Under the pieces are notes generated by a model, which did not search any database, was not told where the DNA came from, and was given only the letters and a program-made list of their open reading frames with translations. A DNA stretch of 26,543 nucleotides from a virus, in IMG/VR virus record IMGVR_UViG_3300035698_002763, positions 1 through 26,543 of that record; one strand, 5' to 3'. The position numbers and the translations under genes were made by a program. Position 1 is the stretch's first letter. Every line of letters begins with the position of its first letter. Positions 44 to 16,342 of this stretch are shown piece by piece.

Positions 44-1051
44 TTATACCTTCACGTATCTAGCCGGATTCTCCCCAACATTGACCCTGCGTATCTTCTC
101 CTCACACCGCAGTTGCTGAAGAGCTTTCCTGACAGTCTCTATACTGAGAGCTGTGTGCCCGCACAGTTTCTGGATAGTCAAGGTACCATCTACCCCATAG
201 TTAGTCCTCAGGGCATGGTAGACCAACTCCGTTGAGCGAAGGTCCTCCTTGGCTACCAGATAGAGAAGTGGCACAGGCTCACACAGGAAGATATCCAGTG
301 GGCTTATCCTGACCTTGTTCCTATCCTTCCATTGGCTGAGCCTCTTCCTACCGCCAGCTCCCAGGTCCTCAAGTCTGTACCCGCTGTCTACATGGTTAGT
401 CCAGATAGACGAGCCCATTACAGCATCCATGCCATCCTCATGCACGACCCTGCCTCCGAAGTCCTTCTTGGACTTGTGCTCATGGTGTACCAGTATGATA
501 GAGGCATCCTCATACCTGGAGGATATCTGCTTTAGGTTATTGCAGTACTGACTGACTATCTCATCATCCGAAGTAGACCCCTTTACCGACGAGTAAACCG
601 AGTCGATGATAATGGCTTTTGGACAGGGCAGGTGCTTGGAAGCTAAGTCCTCATCTACAATATTGATGAACTCCCTTAATCCCTGTGCTAGGTTCAGCTT
701 CATCTCGGTGACCCACATCTGTTGCAGGTTCTCCAGGTTACAGTCTATCCCTCTAGCCATAGACACTATCCTGTCTATGTTCATGTCAAAGGGACCCTCA
801 GTCTGGCAGTACAGTACCGGTATAGCCTTCCTTACGTCATAGCATAGGAAGTCAGTACCTGAAGCCATACATATAGCCATCTGCAGGGCCAGTACACTCT
901 TCCCTATCCCAGCCTTCCCGATAAGCATGGAATGTTCCCCGGCGTTTAGCACTCCGGTGATGTAGGACTTGTACTCCACCTTAGGCAACTGGCACAACTC
1001 CGACATCCTGAATACCCTGTTCCGCTGGTCCGGAGGAATATTAACCGGCAT
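44..1051 (-). CDS. RepA/AAA_25-like RecA-fold replicative helicase or ATPase
   Basis: A 335-residue P-loop ATPase. Walker A GKAGIGKS lies at about residues 45-52, a conserved Glu in QTEGP at about 85, Walker B AIIIDS ending in Asp150, and a motif 4-like ILVHHEHK at about 186-193. The C-terminal 60 residues look like a winged helix. This is the layout of RepA/AAA_25 hexameric helicase-like proteins, which sit beside DNA polymerase in many phages. I chose the ATG at 1051 because GAGGTG stands four bases before it; an in-frame ATG at 1078 lacks a good site. It overlaps the polymerase stop by 11 bases, which implies coupled translation. The RepA/DnaB-type helicase role is inferred from family and position; a loader or recombinase-like ATPase is the alternative. 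Confidence 0.8.
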   Translation of the reverse strand: MPVNIPPDQRNRVFRMSELCQLPKVEYKSYITGVLNAGEHSMLIGKAGIGKSVLALQMAICMASGTDFLCYDVRKAIPVLYCQTEGPFDMNIDRIVSMARGIDCNLENLQQMWVTEMKLNLAQGLREFINIVDEDLASKHLPCPKAIIIDSVYSSVKGSTSDDEIVSQYCNNLKQISSRYEDASIILVHHEHKSKKDFGGRVVHEDGMDAVMGSSIWTNHVDSGYRLEDLGAGGRKRLSQWKDRNKVRISPLDIFLCEPVPLLYLVAKEDLRSTELVYHALRTNYGVDGTLTIQKLCGHTALSIETVRKALQQLRCEEKIRRVNVGENPARYVKV

Positions 1052-3380
1052 GAGGCACCTCAATCTTCCGCAGGTCATCCCAGTTAGGGCCAGCTTGCAA
1101 GTCTACCGGTATCCTGCAAGTCCTTATAATGCTATCCAGTCCGGTTATCTCTACAGGATACTCGAGGCAGCCTTTTACCAGCCACAGTACATAGTCCTTA
1201 TCCGATGGATGGCACTCTACCATAACCGAGTCGTGTATCTGAAGCATGAGCTTGAACTTACCCTCAGTCTGATAGTTATACAGCTTGAGCAGTCCGTGGT
1301 TCAGTATATCCGATACCGTAGACTGGGGCACATAGGCATATCCCTCCTTCTTCAGGCTCTCATTGAAGGTACCCATGAACAGTCTCTTCCTACCGAATGG
1401 TGTAGTCAGCATGCGTGCCTTCTGCAGCTGGCTGACCGTCTTCATTTGCCAGAGCTTGATACCAGGGTACGTAGCGAAATACGCATTGAGAAGCCGTCTG
1501 GCCTCCGAGAGTGAGATGCCAGCCTGCTTAGCAAATGTAACAGGTCCCATTCCGTAGTTACTTGCATGTACAACTCTCTTCGCCAGCTGGCGTTGCTTAT
1601 CAGTAACACCCGACTCCCGAACTCTGAATATCGCTGAAGCATTTCTCCTGTGAATGTCGCCACCATCTTCGAACATCCGAATAAGATTGTCTTCTCCAGC
1701 AAGATACGCAACAACCCTTGCCTCAGCCTGAGACAGGTCTCCAGCCACAAATATATCCTCACCATCTGGTATGAAGAGTCTCCTTGCAATTCCTTTAGGC
1801 ACGTTCTGGAGATTTGTCCCAGTCCCATGTACGCTTTCACGAGAGCTGAGTCTACCCGTTTCAGTTCCCGATATGAGATAGGTGGTTCGGATGCGTCCGT
1901 CTTTGTCGATGGTCGCTTCGAGGTATGTGGAAAGCACTTTCCTAGCTGCCCTGATTTCAAGGACAAGGTCAAACTCTCGTCTGGGGTTCGTCCTCGCAAG
2001 CTCCCTGATGGCTTCTTCGTCCGCCGTAACCGTGTTCCCATGTCCCTGTCTCCTTTTATACTTCGGCTTAAATCCAATGTCTTCGTATAACCACTTCTGC
2101 ATCTGCTTCGGACTTGAGACATTTAGCTCATGTCCGACAAGAGCATCCAGTTCTCCCTGTAACTCTATTATCTTCTCCTTATACTCCTTGATAGCCAGCT
2201 TCCTTATTGGAAGGTCCAGCTTCACACCACGTCTGGCCATATCCATCAGAGGCTCGATAAGCTGGTGTATATAGGTGCGATACAACTCCCACATCCCCAG
2301 GTCATTCAACTCCTTCTCTATCTCGAAAGCTACCTCGAAGGTACAACACGCATCCAGGCAGTTATACTGCCAGAACTTATCCCTGTTATCCTCTCTTATC
2401 CAGTCCTTGTAGTAAGGTTGGTCTGTATATATAGATGTGAGGAAGTCCAGTCCCTTCGGAAGTTCCGGATATGCTAGATGCCCCGCTATCATGGTATCCA
2501 TCCACAGGTTCCTGACGTGGATGTCCATAAGGTCGAGAAGCATTGTCATGTCATACTGTGCGTTCTGGGCTATCTTCTGGTTCGGACCTTCGAGCACTTC
2601 CTTTATCCTGAGCCATATCTCAAGCTCCTGCTCCCGAGACCACAGGCTACCCGATGCCCTATACCAGAATGGTATACAGATAGCCCAGTAGGGGGAGTCG
2701 GATATTCCAATACAGTTTATCTGATTGGTTTCTGTCTCTATGTCGAACGCTACGAAAGGACTGGACTTGAGCCTTGTCAGTTCCTCCATTATCTCATTAT
2801 AGGAAGGGTTAATTAGTAGTACCCTCTCTTTGAGCTTGACTTCCGGAAATCCTGCCTGCTTTTCCGCCCTCTGCATATCAAACAGGGCCACCGGACGGTA
2901 CTCCCAGGTACGAAGCACTGCCGCCGGATGGTACGTAGCAAGGCACTTGACTTGCAGTCCATTGGGCATGGTGCAAGCCAGTATGGACCCACGCCATTTG
3001 GTGATTGAGGCTTTACCGATTATAGCTTTGAGGGGTTCATTACCGAGGCATACTACGAGGTTAGGCCGTATCTTCATTATCTCCTCGAGGACTTCAGCTA
3101 TTCCGGCCTTGAGTATAGCTGTCTGTGTCTTGCCCTCATAGAAGCTACCGAAGTCATTGCCCTTTGGTCTGTACTTTACTAGATTAGTAAGATAGCACTC
3201 ATCCCTGTTTAGCCCACTCTCGACGAGTAACTCATCGAGTATCCGTCCCGCTGCTCCCACGAAAGGCCGTTCCAGCTCTTCTTCCTTGGACCCTGGAGCC
3301 TCTCCTATAAGGACTATCCTGGCATCAGATGGCCCTTCCGCAGGTACTAGCTTACTCCCCCACCTTTTCTCCTCCGGCAT
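1041..3380 (-). CDS. Uracil-DNA glycosylase domain fused to family A DNA polymerase with 3'-5' exonuclease
   Basis: A 779-residue replicative polymerase. Residues 1-175 are a family 4/5-type UDG-like domain, with GEAPG at 26-30, a PFVG segment at 39-42 and HPAA at 151-154. Residues 205-355 are a proofreading exonuclease with all acidic residues: DIE at 213-215, Asp277, and Tyr339/Asp343. Polymerase motif A has Asp548, motif B has Arg597, Lys601 and Tyr609-Gly610, and motif C is HDS at 716-718. There is no 5' nuclease domain. UDG-like N-termini on family A polymerases are known from SPO1-type phages. Two oddities: the O-helix residue equivalent to Taq Phe667 is His605, and the N-terminal CxxC expected of an Fe-S family 4 UDG is missing. 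It overlaps its neighbours on both sides. Confidence 0.95.
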   Translation of the reverse strand: MPEEKRWGSKLVPAEGPSDARIVLIGEAPGSKEEELERPFVGAAGRILDELLVESGLNRDECYLTNLVKYRPKGNDFGSFYEGKTQTAILKAGIAEVLEEIMKIRPNLVVCLGNEPLKAIIGKASITKWRGSILACTMPNGLQVKCLATYHPAAVLRTWEYRPVALFDMQRAEKQAGFPEVKLKERVLLINPSYNEIMEELTRLKSSPFVAFDIETETNQINCIGISDSPYWAICIPFWYRASGSLWSREQELEIWLRIKEVLEGPNQKIAQNAQYDMTMLLDLMDIHVRNLWMDTMIAGHLAYPELPKGLDFLTSIYTDQPYYKDWIREDNRDKFWQYNCLDACCTFEVAFEIEKELNDLGMWELYRTYIHQLIEPLMDMARRGVKLDLPIRKLAIKEYKEKIIELQGELDALVGHELNVSSPKQMQKWLYEDIGFKPKYKRRQGHGNTVTADEEAIRELARTNPRREFDLVLEIRAARKVLSTYLEATIDKDGRIRTTYLISGTETGRLSSRESVHGTGTNLQNVPKGIARRLFIPDGEDIFVAGDLSQAEARVVAYLAGEDNLIRMFEDGGDIHRRNASAIFRVRESGVTDKQRQLAKRVVHASNYGMGPVTFAKQAGISLSEARRLLNAYFATYPGIKLWQMKTVSQLQKARMLTTPFGRKRLFMGTFNESLKKEGYAYVPQSTVSDILNHGLLKLYNYQTEGKFKLMLQIHDSVMVECHPSDKDYVLWLVKGCLEYPVEITGLDSIIRTCRIPVDLQAGPNWDDLRKIEVPHAG

Positions 3381-4254: not shown

Positions 4255-4986
4255 CTACCGTGCTCCTGGTTTCCTGGCCTTGAGCTGCGTCATCATCTTG
4301 TCATAGTTGAATCCCGACTCGATGACATCAAAGCAGTTCAGCCTGGACTTAGCCTTGTACATACGGTCTGCTACCGTCATGACCTGATATACCGGCCGTC
4401 CCCGCTCTCCACGGCCCACTCTCGAGTGATAGACTTCATCGAACCACAGTGCCAGTCTATCGGGTAACTTCTTCCCGACGATGAGAGGTAGTATCATTAC
4501 CTCACTGGTCAACTCGTTCTGTACTATCTGCTCGTGTGCGACTGTTACTATATGCACGTTCAGGCTGGTGAAGGTATAAAGGACATCCTCCATCTTACCT
4601 ACCAGTATTCCCCACTCCTGAAGCGTGGTCTGCTTCCCGACGGTACGGTTGGCGTACTGTATCTGTCTCAAGCACGACTCTTGCATCGTGGTGATAGAAT
4701 CCAGTACCACTGTCTGATACGGCAGGGTACCCGCAGCCAGCTGAGACTTAAACTCCTCTATCTTAGCCTCAAACTTGCTGAAGGCATCCGGCCTCAGTAC
4801 CGACTTATCAGAGTACGTCTCGTACTCTATATCATGGTCACGTAGACTCAATACCCCTCCATCGAAGTCGAAGAAGTACGGCTTGGGAAATGTACCGGCG
4901 AACGTTGTCTTCCCCGTTCCACTTCCTCCGTACATCAGTATCTTCAACTTCATGTTATCGGTAGTGAGTGTCTTAGTGTTTGACAT
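4255..4986 (-). CDS. Sak4-like RecA-fold ATPase (AAA_24), phage recombination
   Basis: 243 residues. Walker A GGSGTGKTT is at 20-28, preceded by the LKILMYG strand. A Walker B-type TVVLDS ends at about Asp96, and VTVAHEQ at about 146-152 matches the RecA-core strand ending in a polar residue. Short RecA-fold proteins of this length in phages are AAA_24/Sak4 single-strand annealing or recombinase-like proteins, which work with an SSB; the DUF669-like protein just downstream would fit. The start overlaps the RlpA-like gene by 14 bases. Confidence is high for the ATPase fold and moderate for the recombination role. Confidence 0.85.
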   Translation of the reverse strand: MSNTKTLTTDNMKLKILMYGGSGTGKTTFAGTFPKPYFFDFDGGVLSLRDHDIEYETYSDKSVLRPDAFSKFEAKIEEFKSQLAAGTLPYQTVVLDSITTMQESCLRQIQYANRTVGKQTTLQEWGILVGKMEDVLYTFTSLNVHIVTVAHEQIVQNELTSEVMILPLIVGKKLPDRLALWFDEVYHSRVGRGERGRPVYQVMTVADRMYKAKSRLNCFDVIESGFNYDKMMTQLKARKPGAR

Positions 4987-5437
4987 TGGTTTCCTCCTTT
5001 CCTGTTGGATTTACCTCTACAACAATAACGCCTTCTTTAAGTTCAGCGAGCTGGCTAAAGGCCATCTTTGACAGGTCAAGCGTGACTCCCCTCGATAACG
5101 CCTTCTTCCCAGGTCCACGGTCATTGACTCTAACGGTGCATAAACGTTTGCCATGCCGGACATGTAGTCGTGTATGAATTGGGTAATCCCAGGTGGCACA
5201 CGTAAGGCCTGCATTTGAGAGGGGCTCACCGGATGCGGTGATGCCTGAGGTGCCTTCTTTCTTACAGCTCTCCGTCGAGTACCACGATGCCCTCGTGCTT
5301 TCCGCATAACTACTTCCCCACCCCAGCAATATAAGACTTGATAGACTCACAGCAAACAACACAGCACTCGACAGTCTTATATATAAGTATCCTCTCAGCG
5401 TCTTTGCCATACCTGTATAGCTCGACGTATCTCTCAT
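4973..5437 (-). CDS. Secreted RlpA-like double-psi beta-barrel protein (putative cell-wall lytic)
   Basis: 154 residues. After a short basic N-terminus there is a hydrophobic segment (about residues 22-42) ending in an SYA-type signal-peptidase site, then an RlpA-like domain: ASWYS, a GITASGEPLSN equivalent of the TASGE box, VNDRGP and LDLSKMAF. RlpA proteins bind or cut denuded glycan strands of peptidoglycan, so the product is expected outside the cytoplasm. There is no lipobox Cys. The ATG at 5437 has AAGGAG five bases upstream; an ATG at 5410 would give the signal peptide a tighter N-terminus but has no clear site. Its first 128 bases lie over the zinc-ribbon gene in another frame. A cell-wall enzyme inside a replication operon is unusual. 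Confidence 0.8.
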   Translation of the reverse strand: MRDTSSYTGMAKTLRGYLYIRLSSAVLFAVSLSSLILLGWGSSYAESTRASWYSTESCKKEGTSGITASGEPLSNAGLTCATWDYPIHTRLHVRHGKRLCTVRVNDRGPGKKALSRGVTLDLSKMAFSQLAELKEGVIVVEVNPTGKEETNVKH

Positions 5438-5486
5438 CACCACTCCTTATCTCCCTATCGCATAGGTCACATGTTACAGTTATCAT
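5310..5486 (-). CDS. Zinc-ribbon miniprotein, 58 aa
   Basis: A short reading frame opening with a CDLC pair (residues 6-9), a GDERY segment and a late CCVVCC cluster (41-46), the layout of a small treble-clef or zinc-ribbon protein. AGGAGGAAGG precedes the ATG, which overlaps the stop of the upstream 32-residue gene as ATGA. Its 3' two thirds overlap the 5' end of the RlpA-like gene in another frame, so this stretch seems to code twice. I support it from start signal, motif spacing and gene overlap; no function can be assigned. Confidence 0.6.
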   Translation of the reverse strand: MITVTCDLCDREIRSGDERYVELYRYGKDAERILIYKTVECCVVCCESIKSYIAGVGK

Positions 5487-10017: not shown

Positions 10018-10464
10018 TTATATCAGAGAACTTACTTTCACCATTGAGCCAGTGAAGTCACCAGTAGTAGCCTCTTCGACATTCTCAACAGCTTGTCTTA
10101 CCTTCAAGCCCAACACGTGAGCCAGTATCCTATTCACTGACACCCCACCAAATAGAGCCTTGAATTGCCTGTCGACCAAAGCTGGTAACGTTTTACCATT
10201 ACATTCTACCTTTACCACGTCACCAATCTCTACACCTAGAGCCTTACGGTTAGCCCTTGACAATAGTACTATAGGCGTTAGCTCATTTACACCTTCCCAG
10301 CTGACTTGAAGTACCTCATAGTCCGCACTGTTCAGGGCCACATAGTCACCAGTGTAAAAGTGACTAATGCACTCTGATATGCGTTGTCTACGCTCAAGCT
10401 CCTGCTTCATTGCCCTTTCCAGCTCCGGCGGAATACCGCCCATACCACTATCATTACCACTCAT
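10018..10464 (-). CDS. Hypothetical protein, 148 aa, possible double-psi barrel
   Basis: After a charged helical N-terminus, residues 60-120 read as LTPIVLLSRANRKALGVEIGD, a VKVECNG strand, then ILAHVLGLKV. The R-x(3)-LGVEIGDVV pattern resembles the double-psi beta-barrel found in CDC48-N-like and related small domains, but I would not name a family. AGGAG lies six bases before the ATG. It follows the amidoligase/glutaminase pair in the same direction, so a connection is possible but unproven. Confidence 0.5.
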   Translation of the reverse strand: MSGNDSGMGGIPPELERAMKQELERRQRISECISHFYTGDYVALNSADYEVLQVSWEGVNELTPIVLLSRANRKALGVEIGDVVKVECNGKTLPALVDRQFKALFGGVSVNRILAHVLGLKVRQAVENVEEATTGDFTGSMVKVSSLI

Positions 10465-10488: not shown

Positions 10489-10563
10489 TCACCGTCCAGC
10501 TTTCGGTTTCGAGACTTCTAGAAAGCCGGCTACACGCTGGCCTGACTGTCTCGACCCAGCCAT
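10489..10563 (-). CDS. Possible 24-aa basic microprotein
   Basis: The ATG follows the glutaminase stop with no gap (TAAATG), GGGGA lies six bases before it, and the frame ends 25 bases before the next gene. The product is basic (seven Arg/Lys in 24 residues). The same bases hold GCTTTC/GAAAGC and CCAGC/GCTGG inverted repeats, so the stretch could be a structured spacer rather than a gene. Low confidence. Confidence 0.3.
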   Translation of the reverse strand: MAGSRQSGQRVAGFLEVSKPKAGR

Positions 10564-11457
10564 TTAATATCCCCAGCACTTATTTACGTTATCCCAGTAC
10601 ACCTCGCTAGTCCTTACCACTTCCCGACCACCACGCACTGAGCCACGTTTACCCTTAGAATTGTAGTACTTGGAATAGCTAGTCAACCTACTAGTATCCC
10701 AGTATCTAACACTCACAGGATTAACCTGCTTATGCTCTACCTCGACGGTATTCCGGATTATCTTACCGTGTACCAACCTGATACACAGTATGTTATCATC
10801 ATTCCAGTAATACCCTTTACAAGACCAGCCCTCAGTGAGCCCTGACTCTTTACAGGCAGTTTCGAATATATCCCGTGTACTACAGAATACCAGCAAGTCC
10901 AGCTCCGTATGATAATTCAGGAATATAGGATTCCCGTAATTCCGCCATAGCCACATTCTGAGCTTACGTGTATCCAGCATGGCACAAGCTATATTGCCTT
11001 CCGCCTCTTTATAGACTGACTGTATCCCAGCTATCCGTCGAGGAGCACGTTCAATAATTCTGAGTAAAACTTCGCTATCGCACTCGCTATAACAAGGATA
11101 CTCCGCCCTGAGACTGTCATAATTGGATATCACTCCATTATGTATAAACTGGAGTGTCCTAGACTTGAAGGGGTGATTATTCCTGTTATCCTCAGGCTTT
11201 CCATGTGTAGCCCAACGGTTATGCCCGATTATCATATAAGGCCTGTCCCTTTCTATCCTTTCAAACTCAGGCCTCATGACAAACTCACTAGCAGTTTCAC
11301 CATACTTGAAGTATCGCTCATGCGTACCGTCACTGTACGCAAAGCCCGTAGCGTGTCTACCACGTATTTCAGTAGCCACAGCTAGGGCCTTGTATAGCTG
11401 ATACTTCTTAGCATAGTTAGACTTCTTTCCTGTTGTAAAGCCATATATTCCACACAT
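10564..11457 (-). CDS. Class II glutamine amidotransferase (Ntn-hydrolase glutaminase)
   Basis: 297 residues. Starts MCGIYG, so removal of Met exposes the nucleophile Cys2. Further GlmS/PurF-type landmarks: RGRHATG at 32-38, GHNRWATHG at 78-86, FIHNGVISN at 104-112 and CDSEVLL at 126-132. This domain hydrolyses glutamine to release ammonia. There is no sugar isomerase or phosphoribosyltransferase domain; the C-terminal 110 residues are a basic extension. The ATG shares one base with the amidoligase stop (TAATG), so the two are made together. Known family logic: a stand-alone GAT-II supplies nitrogen to a partner ligase, here the adjacent amidoligase. Confidence 0.92.
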   Translation of the reverse strand: MCGIYGFTTGKKSNYAKKYQLYKALAVATEIRGRHATGFAYSDGTHERYFKYGETASEFVMRPEFERIERDRPYMIIGHNRWATHGKPEDNRNNHPFKSRTLQFIHNGVISNYDSLRAEYPCYSECDSEVLLRIIERAPRRIAGIQSVYKEAEGNIACAMLDTRKLRMWLWRNYGNPIFLNYHTELDLLVFCSTRDIFETACKESGLTEGWSCKGYYWNDDNILCIRLVHGKIIRNTVEVEHKQVNPVSVRYWDTSRLTSYSKYYNSKGKRGSVRGGREVVRTSEVYWDNVNKCWGY

Positions 11458-12467
11458 TAAGCTGTCACCTCGTCTCTAGCTAACCACTGACTTCGACCTA
11501 CACATATTTCATTATTACAACACACACCGTTTGCTACGTGTCTACAAGTGAGCCAGTATCCTATAGTACAAGCCCTATTACGAATCATCTGATTTGGCCT
11601 TTCTCGTCTAGTCCTGATATTCTCACGTGTAGCCCGTTCAAACTTCCACCACCGCTTGACTAGATAATCACGTACCAAGTTAAGCCTCATATCTATAGTA
11701 GTATATATTCTATTGTTAGGCTTGAGCCCTACCGCACATAGAAAGTTACGTAGATTCCCTGAGCTATTAGGTAGCTTAGACTTCGACGTGCACCGTCTAG
11801 CTTTCGCATGCTCGTATAATCGTAAGCATAGCATACACCAGTTAAGTACCTTATCACTGTCCACCGTGGGCGAGTGATACCTAAATTCAATAGTTTTACG
11901 CTCATTCTTAGACCAGCTGGAAAGATTTAGTCCGAATTGCCTATCATAGCATTTATTCATAACCTCACTAACTGACCTAGACCTAGCTATTAACTCCCTA
12001 TCTCCGGCCCCCCGTAGCTTGGCATAGTTACGTCCACGTGAAGCTGGCGGTATGAAACCAGCTATGATGTTTTCATACTTATAGCATAGATTATATAGTG
12101 ACTTCATGTGCTCCAGCGTGCTATCACGTCCATCTACGTGTACATGAAACCCACAACTACTATTGACCCTCATACCTAACATAGTAAGTATAGAGCACAG
12201 CTTTTTTACAAACTCCACTCCCTCACTGTCCATTGGCATGTGCCATATCAACTCATAGGCATGGTAGCTATAGTTATCCTCAGGCCTGATAGACCCGTCC
12301 GGCTTTATAACCACCTGAAAGCTCCTGTCTACATTAGCTGAGTATGAACCAACCCTGCTATCTATACCATTACGTTCAAGTATAGACTTCAATGTAGTAC
12401 CATCCACCAGCCCAAACATCTCAAGCTCACAGCCCACAAGCCGTGACTCATTAACTATTGCTATCAT
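11457..12467 (-). CDS. Amidoligase_2-type COOH-NH2 ligase
   Basis: 336 residues. GS-fold amidoligase signatures are visible: GCELEMF at 12-18, YELIW with Glu72, CGFHVHVD at 105-112, an SRGRNYAKL helix near 143-151 and IEFRYHSPT at 193-201. These ligases use ATP to activate a carboxylate and form an amide. Comparative genomics has linked the phage members to class II glutaminases and to peptide or protein tagging. The C-terminal third is basic and ends in a Cys/His cluster (about residues 295-323) that could bind metal. It begins in an ATGA overlap with the 54-aa CxxC gene. The substrate is unknown. Confidence 0.85.
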   Translation of the reverse strand: MIAIVNESRLVGCELEMFGLVDGTTLKSILERNGIDSRVGSYSANVDRSFQVVIKPDGSIRPEDNYSYHAYELIWHMPMDSEGVEFVKKLCSILTMLGMRVNSSCGFHVHVDGRDSTLEHMKSLYNLCYKYENIIAGFIPPASRGRNYAKLRGAGDRELIARSRSVSEVMNKCYDRQFGLNLSSWSKNERKTIEFRYHSPTVDSDKVLNWCMLCLRLYEHAKARRCTSKSKLPNSSGNLRNFLCAVGLKPNNRIYTTIDMRLNLVRDYLVKRWWKFERATRENIRTRRERPNQMIRNRACTIGYWLTCRHVANGVCCNNEICVGRSQWLARDEVTA

Positions 12468-12628
12468 AAGTCACCGCACTTAATGCAACTGTCACACCCA
12501 CCAGTGACTACGCTAGCTATACTGATATCCCTAGCAGTATCCAATCCCATACCTATTAACTGTAAGGCCTTATTCATGTCCCCTTCGTCCAATGCTCGTT
12601 GAACGTGTACTACATCTATTACCTTCAT
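12464..12628 (-). CDS. CxxC miniprotein, 54 aa, first gene of the leftward operon
   Basis: A 54-codon frame with AAGGAG six bases before the ATG and an ATGA overlap with the amidoligase start. The N-terminal 35 residues are helical (VVHVQRALDEGDMNKALQLI); the end carries a CDSCIKC cluster, a Gly-Asp-Leu terminus and a GG pair before the first Cys. It is the first gene after the central leftward promoter. It could be a partner or substrate of the amidoligase; that is speculation from linkage only. Confidence 0.6.
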   Translation of the reverse strand: MKVIDVVHVQRALDEGDMNKALQLIGMGLDTARDISIASVVTGGCDSCIKCGDL

Positions 12629-12696: not shown

Positions 12697-12731
12697 TTGA
12701 CAAGTATACATCAACGAAGTGTATCTGTCAA
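12697..12731 (-). promoter_or_regulatory. Central leftward sigma70-type promoter in a TTGACA/TGTCAA palindrome
   Basis: On the minus strand, -35 TTGACA (12731-12726), a 17-base spacer, -10 TATACT (12708-12703), then TGTCAA immediately after. The arms extend beyond the hexamers with partial matches. Expected start of transcription is about 12696, some 68 bases before the 54-aa gene. It should drive the amidoligase operon. Confidence 0.7.
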
Positions 12732-12891: not shown

Positions 12892-12919
12892 TTGACAGCT
12901 AGCAATACTCATGTATACT
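12892..12919 (+). promoter_or_regulatory. Central rightward sigma70-type promoter
   Basis: -35 TTGACA at 12892-12897, a 16-base spacer, and -10 TATACT at 12914-12919. A TTGTCAAGTCTA element lies just upstream (12869-12880). It is the only strong rightward promoter I can see before the packaging and capsid genes, leaving a leader of about 95 bases before 13022. Confidence 0.65.
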
Positions 12920-14346: not shown

Positions 14347-14404
14347 ACGCCAATACCATACAATTTGTAATGCAGTGGTACGAACATACAAACCTGGTGG
14401 CATA

Positions 14405-15094
14405 ATGGAAGATACTCTAAGACAAGGCCAGTTCACAGAAGACCTGATAGGTCAGCTCGGCGGAGACGACGTCCTGAAGTTCCACGAGATACTAAATCCA
14501 CACGACTTCATCTTCAAGTACTGCTACACCCTCGACCCACACGATGAGCTGAACGCCGTCAAACTCATGCCGGACCATAGATACCTCCATGTCCTTGTCG
14601 ACGAGTGGCTAGCCTCCAAACAACTCCTGATAGTCAAGTCCCGTCAGATGATGGTCACCTGGCTCATGTGCTCCCTACACCTATGGGACTGCATGATACA
14701 CCATGGACGTATAGCCTTCTTAGTTTCCAAGAATGAGAATGACGCCAACTACTCCCGTGAGCTATCCCTGCTATCCCGTGTAGACTTCATATACGACAAG
14801 CTCCCACCCCACATCCGTAAGATGAGCTACCGAATCAAGACCCTGAAACCAGCCTGCTTCAAGTTCCCAAAGATGGACTCCGCTATCTATGGCATGTCCC
14901 AGGACTCCGATGCTCTCAGACAATACACAGCTACCTCAGTCCTCTGGGACGAGATGGCTTTCCACGAGCACGCATACTCGGCCTATGCTGCCGTTAAACC
15001 CACTCTCATGGGCGGTGGTCGCCTGTGTGGAGTATCTACCCCAAACGGTAAGAAGAACCTGTTCTATGACCTGGTAACCAACACCAAGAAGTAG
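14405..15094 (+). CDS. terL: Large terminase, N-terminal ATPase part (split gene)
   Basis: 229 residues from the ATG at 14405 (an in-frame GTG at 14375 is less likely). It has a degenerate Walker A (LLIVKSRQMMVTW; Lys78 and Arg80 present, but the usual Gly-Lys pair before Ser/Thr is missing), Walker B VLWDE with Asp182/Glu183, and the coupling motif STPNG at 211-215. It stops at TAG 15 residues after STPNG, inside the ATPase domain, where a normal large terminase continues for about 70 residues to the nuclease. The continuation is found 411 bases downstream at 15506. It translocates DNA into the prohead in complex with the portal. Confidence 0.85.
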   Translation: MEDTLRQGQFTEDLIGQLGGDDVLKFHEILNPHDFIFKYCYTLDPHDELNAVKLMPDHRYLHVLVDEWLASKQLLIVKSRQMMVTWLMCSLHLWDCMIHHGRIAFLVSKNENDANYSRELSLLSRVDFIYDKLPPHIRKMSYRIKTLKPACFKFPKMDSAIYGMSQDSDALRQYTATSVLWDEMAFHEHAYSAYAAVKPTLMGGGRLCGVSTPNGKKNLFYDLVTNTKK

Positions 15095-15390: not shown

Positions 15391-15516
15391 ATGTCTGCAT
15401 ACAAATTATTGATGTACGCTAAAGACGGTGCCAGTTGGTTACTAGACCTGAAGGACACCCCTGACACCCCAATAGAAGAACTACTAGCCTGTTTCTGGAG
15501 CCAATATGGGACGTGA
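15391..15516 (+). CDS. Second small protein within the terminase gap, 41 aa
   Basis: AAAGGAG lies five bases before the ATG. The 41-residue product is acidic (DLKDTPDTPIEELL) with aromatic ends. Its stop overlaps the start of the terminase nuclease part by 11 bases, in another frame, so translation of that part may depend on it. No family known. Confidence 0.5.
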   Translation: MSAYKLLMYAKDGASWLLDLKDTPDTPIEELLACFWSQYGT

Positions 15517-16342
15517 TTACACGCCAATAGATAAAGGAATAAGTAAACTTGGACAGGACAATGGATTTACAATCGTACGTCTACACTACTCCGCTGACCC
15601 CGTCAAGGACGATGTCTGGATTAAGCGAGAGCGTGCTGCATATCCTTACGCTGAACTATGGCAGCAGGAAATGGAACTTGACTTCATCTCTACCGCTGGC
15701 AAGAGGGTGTATCCTGAGTTCTCACTCGAGCGGAATGTTACTGAACTGAAACGTCAACCCTTCAACGAGATATGGAGAGGATGGGACTTTGGCTATGGCC
15801 ACCCTGCAGTCGTCTGGACACAGCGTACCTATGAAGGACGCTTCCATGTCCTGGCCTGCCTGATGGGCACTGACCGCACAATTCAGTCCTTTGCCAAGGA
15901 GGTTATAGATGTCGGAGAGAAGATGTTCCCCGGTGCAAAGTATAAGGATGCTGGTGACCCGGCTTGCCGTCAGCATAATGACAAGAGTGAGCAGACGACA
16001 GCAGACATTCTCAGAGTCATATACGGAATCCGGATGCAGTCAAAGCCTGCCCGTGTTGCCGACGGTGTCCGCCTCGTACGGACCTTGCTCACACCACGAC
16101 CTGATGGCTTCATGCGAATGAAGATAGACAAGTCCTGTGAACTCGTGGTAGACGGATTCCTTGGGGGCTACATCCGTGATGATGATGACGACCCCGTGAA
16201 GGACAACTACTACGACCACGTGATGGACGCACTTCGCTACGTAGCCGTAATCCTATTTGACATACGCACAGGAGACGCAATGAAACCCTTTCGGGCATGG
16301 GCCCCGAAGCGTCCTACCGCCTCTCCCGTGACAGGATATTAG
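15506..16342 (+). CDS. terL: Large terminase, C-terminal part with RNase H-like nuclease
   Basis: 278 residues. The first 60 (NGFTIVRLHYSADP..., then AYPYAELWQQEMELDF) match the end of a TerL ATPase domain, and the rest is the nuclease: GWDFG with Asp94, KDAGD with Asp148/Asp151, and YYDHVMDALRY with Asp237/Asp241. It cuts concatemers into genome units. A TGGAG site lies five bases before the ATG, so it can be translated as a separate chain; the frame stays open upstream to 15488. Two chains acting together, or joining at the RNA level, are both possible. Confidence 0.88.
   Translation: MGRDYTPIDKGISKLGQDNGFTIVRLHYSADPVKDDVWIKRERAAYPYAELWQQEMELDFISTAGKRVYPEFSLERNVTELKRQPFNEIWRGWDFGYGHPAVVWTQRTYEGRFHVLACLMGTDRTIQSFAKEVIDVGEKMFPGAKYKDAGDPACRQHNDKSEQTTADILRVIYGIRMQSKPARVADGVRLVRTLLTPRPDGFMRMKIDKSCELVVDGFLGGYIRDDDDDPVKDNYYDHVMDALRYVAVILFDIRTGDAMKPFRAWAPKRPTASPVTGY

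Follow-up and report, generated by a model that had tools for sequence, protein, structure and literature searches.

The window analysed here, a linear virus record of 26,543 bases that is probably a fragment, carries what is probably a phage copy of the known amidoligase-glutaminase module, a pair of enzymes that would form an amide bond on a peptide or small molecule, with a presumably unrelated 54-residue CxxC open reading frame (ORF) in front of it. The gene identities, the intact catalytic residues, the predicted fold and the conserved pairing are established in this study. Ammonia transfer, amidation as the reaction, its target and its timing are what we infer from protein families, residues and linkage. 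Glutamine would be hydrolysed by the glutaminase through the cysteine at its N terminus, and the ammonia so released would be coupled by the GS-fold ligase to a carboxylate that it activates with ATP. The product would be an amidated peptide or small molecule; among published proposals for the target, the leading guess is a peptide of the host cell wall. The 54-aa ORF would be a lineage-specific small gene that stands first in the operon by chance. The features of the locus are as follows.

12892-12919, plus strand: divergent twin promoter, a match to TTGACA-N15-19-TATAMT
12703..12731, minus strand: leftward sigma-70-type promoter, TTGACA-17-TATACT, 11 of 12 consensus bases
12464..12628, minus strand: 54-aa ORF with the C terminus CDSCIKCGDL, probably a real, orphan small gene (Shine-Dalgarno AAGGAG and codon score)
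11457..12467, minus strand: GS-fold COOH-NH2 ligase of 336 aa, Amidoligase_2 (PF12224), by Pfam, conserved columns and fold match
10564..11457, minus strand: stand-alone class II (Ntn) glutaminase of 297 aa, GlmS/PurF-type, by GATase_6/GATase_7, PDB profile and residues
10489..10563, minus strand: 24-aa basic ORF downstream of the glutaminase, unsupported as a gene

The gene positions, the overlaps and the upstream promoter of the original prediction were all borne out by ORF and promoter scans. The stop of the 54-aa ORF overlaps the ligase start by 4 bases (ATGA), and the final base of the ligase stop codon is also the first base of the glutaminase gene, a 1-base overlap (TAATG). The pattern TTGACA-N15-19-TATAMT occurs twice in the whole window against 0.07 matches expected, and none of 100 shuffles gave two. 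Position is the one indication that the unit may act early in infection. An Rfam scan found no RNA family anywhere in the window, the hairpin in the leader ahead of the 54-aa ORF has an ordinary folding energy (z -0.46), and a defence-system library gave no match. At the DNA level, a search of 8-14 kb of the window against phages returned nothing, and a search for closer relatives with the portal gene yielded a single 4.1-kb contig (L091) of 66% identity, too short to span the locus. The large terminase of the window lies in two ORFs, 14375-15094 and 15506-16342 (plus strand), which match successive stretches of the TerL profile (PHROG_2 279-413 and 430-596); the 411-nt gap between them holds a 91-aa ORF, all three are in one frame, and no Rfam intron was found at the split. 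The 148-aa product of the ORF at 10018-10464 (minus strand) resembles the CDC48 N-terminal domain, but scores below threshold (25.5 bits against a cut-off of 35.1).

The ligase and the glutaminase were assigned with Pfam, PHROG and NCBIfam. The ligase matched Pfam PF12224 (Amidoligase_2) with 74.5 bits (gathering cut-off 22) and an E-value of 1.6e-20, the match spanning ligase residues 8-217 and profile positions 2-244 of 245. A 37-sequence alignment including the window ligase contained 14 invariant columns, E14, E16, D57, S59, E72, H108, H110, N181, E194 and R196 among them, and the signature residues GxExE, DxS, HVH and EFRxH are all kept. Because these columns are invariant, the window ligase looks catalytically intact. 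An AlphaFold model built from the same alignment had a mean pLDDT of 77.8, with much of the core above 90 and the C-terminal 90 residues poor. A sequence search of the PDB with the ligase found no match. When the model was compared with the PDB, the top matches included glutamine synthetase, PafA, Dop and YbdK (E 1e-4 for YbdK) at modest TM-scores of 0.3-0.4, which supports a predicted glutamine-synthetase-like fold. The basic, Cys/His-rich C terminus had been suggested as a possible means of recruiting the target, an idea that found no support: the tail is unconserved and modelled at low confidence.

The glutaminase matched GATase_6 in Pfam at 3.5e-16, GATase_7 was also matched, and its profile hit GlmS in the PDB at 2e-29, identifying a relative of the GlmS N-terminal domain. 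The nucleophile C2 as well as R81, T84, N107, G108 and D127 are invariant in 8 aligned glutaminases. The window protein thus has the residues of a class II (Ntn) glutamine amidotransferase, and glutaminase activity is predicted for it. With their residues intact, both enzymes are probably active. Single-protein scans of IMG/VR recovered one relative of the glutaminase (L002) and none of the ligase.

Relatives of the locus were gathered with ligase alignments, giving 80 IMG/VR and 80 bacterial or archaeal loci besides named phages. The ligase is followed by the glutaminase on the same strand in all 39 loci that hold both, the window included, and the gap is below 100 nt in 38 of them (a negative gap in L006 was an artefact of an upstream start, and its annotated gap of 77 nt was used). 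Some of the 39 are near-copies of one lineage. Their sources are unrelated phages, among them LUZ24 (gp18/gp19) and Arthrobacter phage Ottawa, viruses from metagenomes, and genomes of bacteria and archaea. Ligases linked to a glutaminase group together in a FastTree tree of 154 sequences, with 7 changes compared with 32.6 in shuffles. The window ligase falls in a supported branch of 22 rows, 17 of them glutaminase-linked, and a planctomycete chromosomal pair (L092) is its closest neighbour, its exact place being unsure because of long branches. The window DNA polymerase, of family A and fused to a uracil-DNA glycosylase domain (1041-3380, minus strand), was unmatched in 8 glutaminase-bearing viruses, several of them short fragments searched without a positive control, a weak hint of unrelatedness. 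The proposal of a glutamine-dependent, amide-forming pair is supported by the protein families, by catalytic residues that are all kept and by the strong conservation of the linkage, and the locus appears to be mostly an ordinary further example of the known phage module of Amidoligase_2 and class II glutaminase.

Some observations count against this reading. Neither a glutaminase nor a cyclotransferase was present in 107 of 154 Amidoligase_2 loci within the DNA stretch covered per locus, and since most such loci are without a glutaminase, a ligase of this family is able to use a different amine, or ammonia from the host. In addition, YbdK, the closest solved fold of the ligase, joins amino acids, not ammonia. 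As an alternative, the ligase might, like YbdK, make a gamma-glutamyl or other isopeptide bond to the amine of an amino acid or peptide, the glutaminase serving as a trimming or recycling amidohydrolase. The nearest solved folds of the model are YbdK and other glutamyl ligases; in other phages the same ligase is accompanied by a gamma-glutamyl cyclotransferase, an enzyme whose substrates are gamma-glutamyl amides, in place of the glutaminase, or by both plus an ATP-grasp protein; LUZ24-type cassettes contain the glutaminase as well as the cyclotransferase; and "amidohydrolase" is a label given to the glutaminase domain in some papers. On the other hand, all GlmS-type residues for glutamine hydrolysis are kept in the window glutaminase, and neither a cyclotransferase nor an ATP-grasp gene was seen in the window, itself a fragment. 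Isopeptide formation is considered unlikely, and amide formation with glutamine-derived ammonia remains the preferred reading.

The 54-aa ORF is preceded by the Shine-Dalgarno sequence AAGGAG and has a codon score above that of 95% of wrong-frame pieces, and on these grounds it looks like a real gene. It matched no Pfam or NCBIfam family and no PHROG significantly. Among 50,697 phage records tblastn found a single match, at chance level (E = 10), a pattern-seeded IMG/VR scan found no relatives, and none were present among the ORFs of the ligase and ligase-glutaminase loci. Short ORFs with a C-terminal CxxC were found within 600 nt upstream at 6 of 87 ligase loci compared with 27 of 445 random places, which is the chance rate. 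The structure model of the protein was of low confidence (pLDDT 58.6), with two low-confidence helices predicted. Between 8632 and 9904 on the minus strand the window contains a run of small Cys-rich ORFs, zinc-ribbon, SWIM-like and CxxC types among them. With several such ORFs on the strand of the operon at 8.6-9.9 kb, a CxxC ORF heading the operon is unremarkable.

The peptide had originally been proposed as a partner in the system, in which case it would be a lineage-specific substrate or carrier amidated by the ligase and glutaminase, and the three genes would form one modification system. If true, the phage would encode a system for peptide modification together with a peptide dedicated to it. 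What speaks for such a role is position and overlap only, namely the Shine-Dalgarno sequence and the ATGA overlap with the ligase, and against it stand the lack of homologues in phages, IMG/VR and ligase neighbourhoods, the chance-level frequency of upstream CxxC ORFs and the further small Cys-rich leftward ORFs in the window. No relative of the 54-aa frame was found at the loci that keep the ligase, an outcome that the original prediction had named as its own refutation; the nearest of these ligases are only about 23-38% identical, which leaves room for a lineage-specific role. With no homologues and no counterparts beside other ligase loci, the partnership is not supported, and we regard it as very improbable. 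The suggested 24-aa basic peptide is unsupported both as a gene and as a participant: its codon score of 0.02 falls between the values of coding pieces, with a median of 0.20, and those of wrong-frame pieces, with a median of -0.20.

The module was predicted in 2009, as relayed by citing papers, to modify peptidoglycan or peptides, and the wider gene set is named a peptidoglycan modification cassette in PMC5498523, PMC11945000 and PMC10580990. For phiEco32/LUZ24-type cassettes, peptidoglycan modification and a block of superinfection are put forward as a hypothesis in PMC10580990, PMC5498523, PMC11945000 and PMC11318856, whereas one paper proposes nitrogen metabolism (PMC10945688). An RlpA-like (DPBB) protein with a probable signal sequence is encoded at 4973-5443 (minus strand) in the same leftward early-type block of the window, and such a secreted protein weakly fits a cell-wall setting. 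No biochemical test of any member of the phage module was found in the literature searched, nor a report testing reaction or target, and yet the pairs recur across phages and bacteria. The locus adds little beyond one more example of a known module, and the claimed novelty, a CxxC peptide dedicated to the system, is not supported. It does offer a convenient test case: the uncultured virus has the module in a minimal form of two enzymes, and a relative on a Planctomycetota chromosome is linked to a glutaminase as well.

Among known systems, the LUZ24-like and phiEco32-like podoviruses (LUZ24 gp18/gp19, UFV-P2 ORF23/25) share with the window the order of Amidoligase_2 followed by Gn_AT_II, but in their cassettes these two are joined by a second COOH-NH2 ligase, an ATP-grasp protein and a gamma-glutamyl cyclotransferase. 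No gene for any of the three was seen in the 26.5-kb fragment, and the window ligase is only 18% identical to LUZ24 gp18. YbdK/GCS2, PafA and Dop, which are GS-fold carboxylate-amine ligases, have the same predicted fold as the window ligase and belong to a different sequence family; we know of no partner glutaminase for them. In Arthrobacter phage Ottawa, genes 65-66 (carboxylate amine ligase and glutamine amidotransferase) are adjacent on one strand, and the stand-alone glutaminase is similar in size to that of the window; unlike the window, Ottawa has a cyclotransferase-like gene upstream of the ligase and is without the 54-aa CxxC gene. The nearest ligase found is that of Planctomycetales bacterium ZRK34 (L092), with 34% identity by tblastn and 38% over the tree columns, and as in the window the glutaminase lies downstream of the ligase (3 nt). 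This pair is chromosomal, near an AAA ATPase, an HTH protein and a recombinase-like ORF, whereas the window is viral. With product names judged by eye, the ligase and these three neighbours occur in the same order in three Planctomycetota loci (L092 4992-9475, L094 4905-8631 and L095 4821-8743), and the neighbourhoods look like an integrated mobile element.
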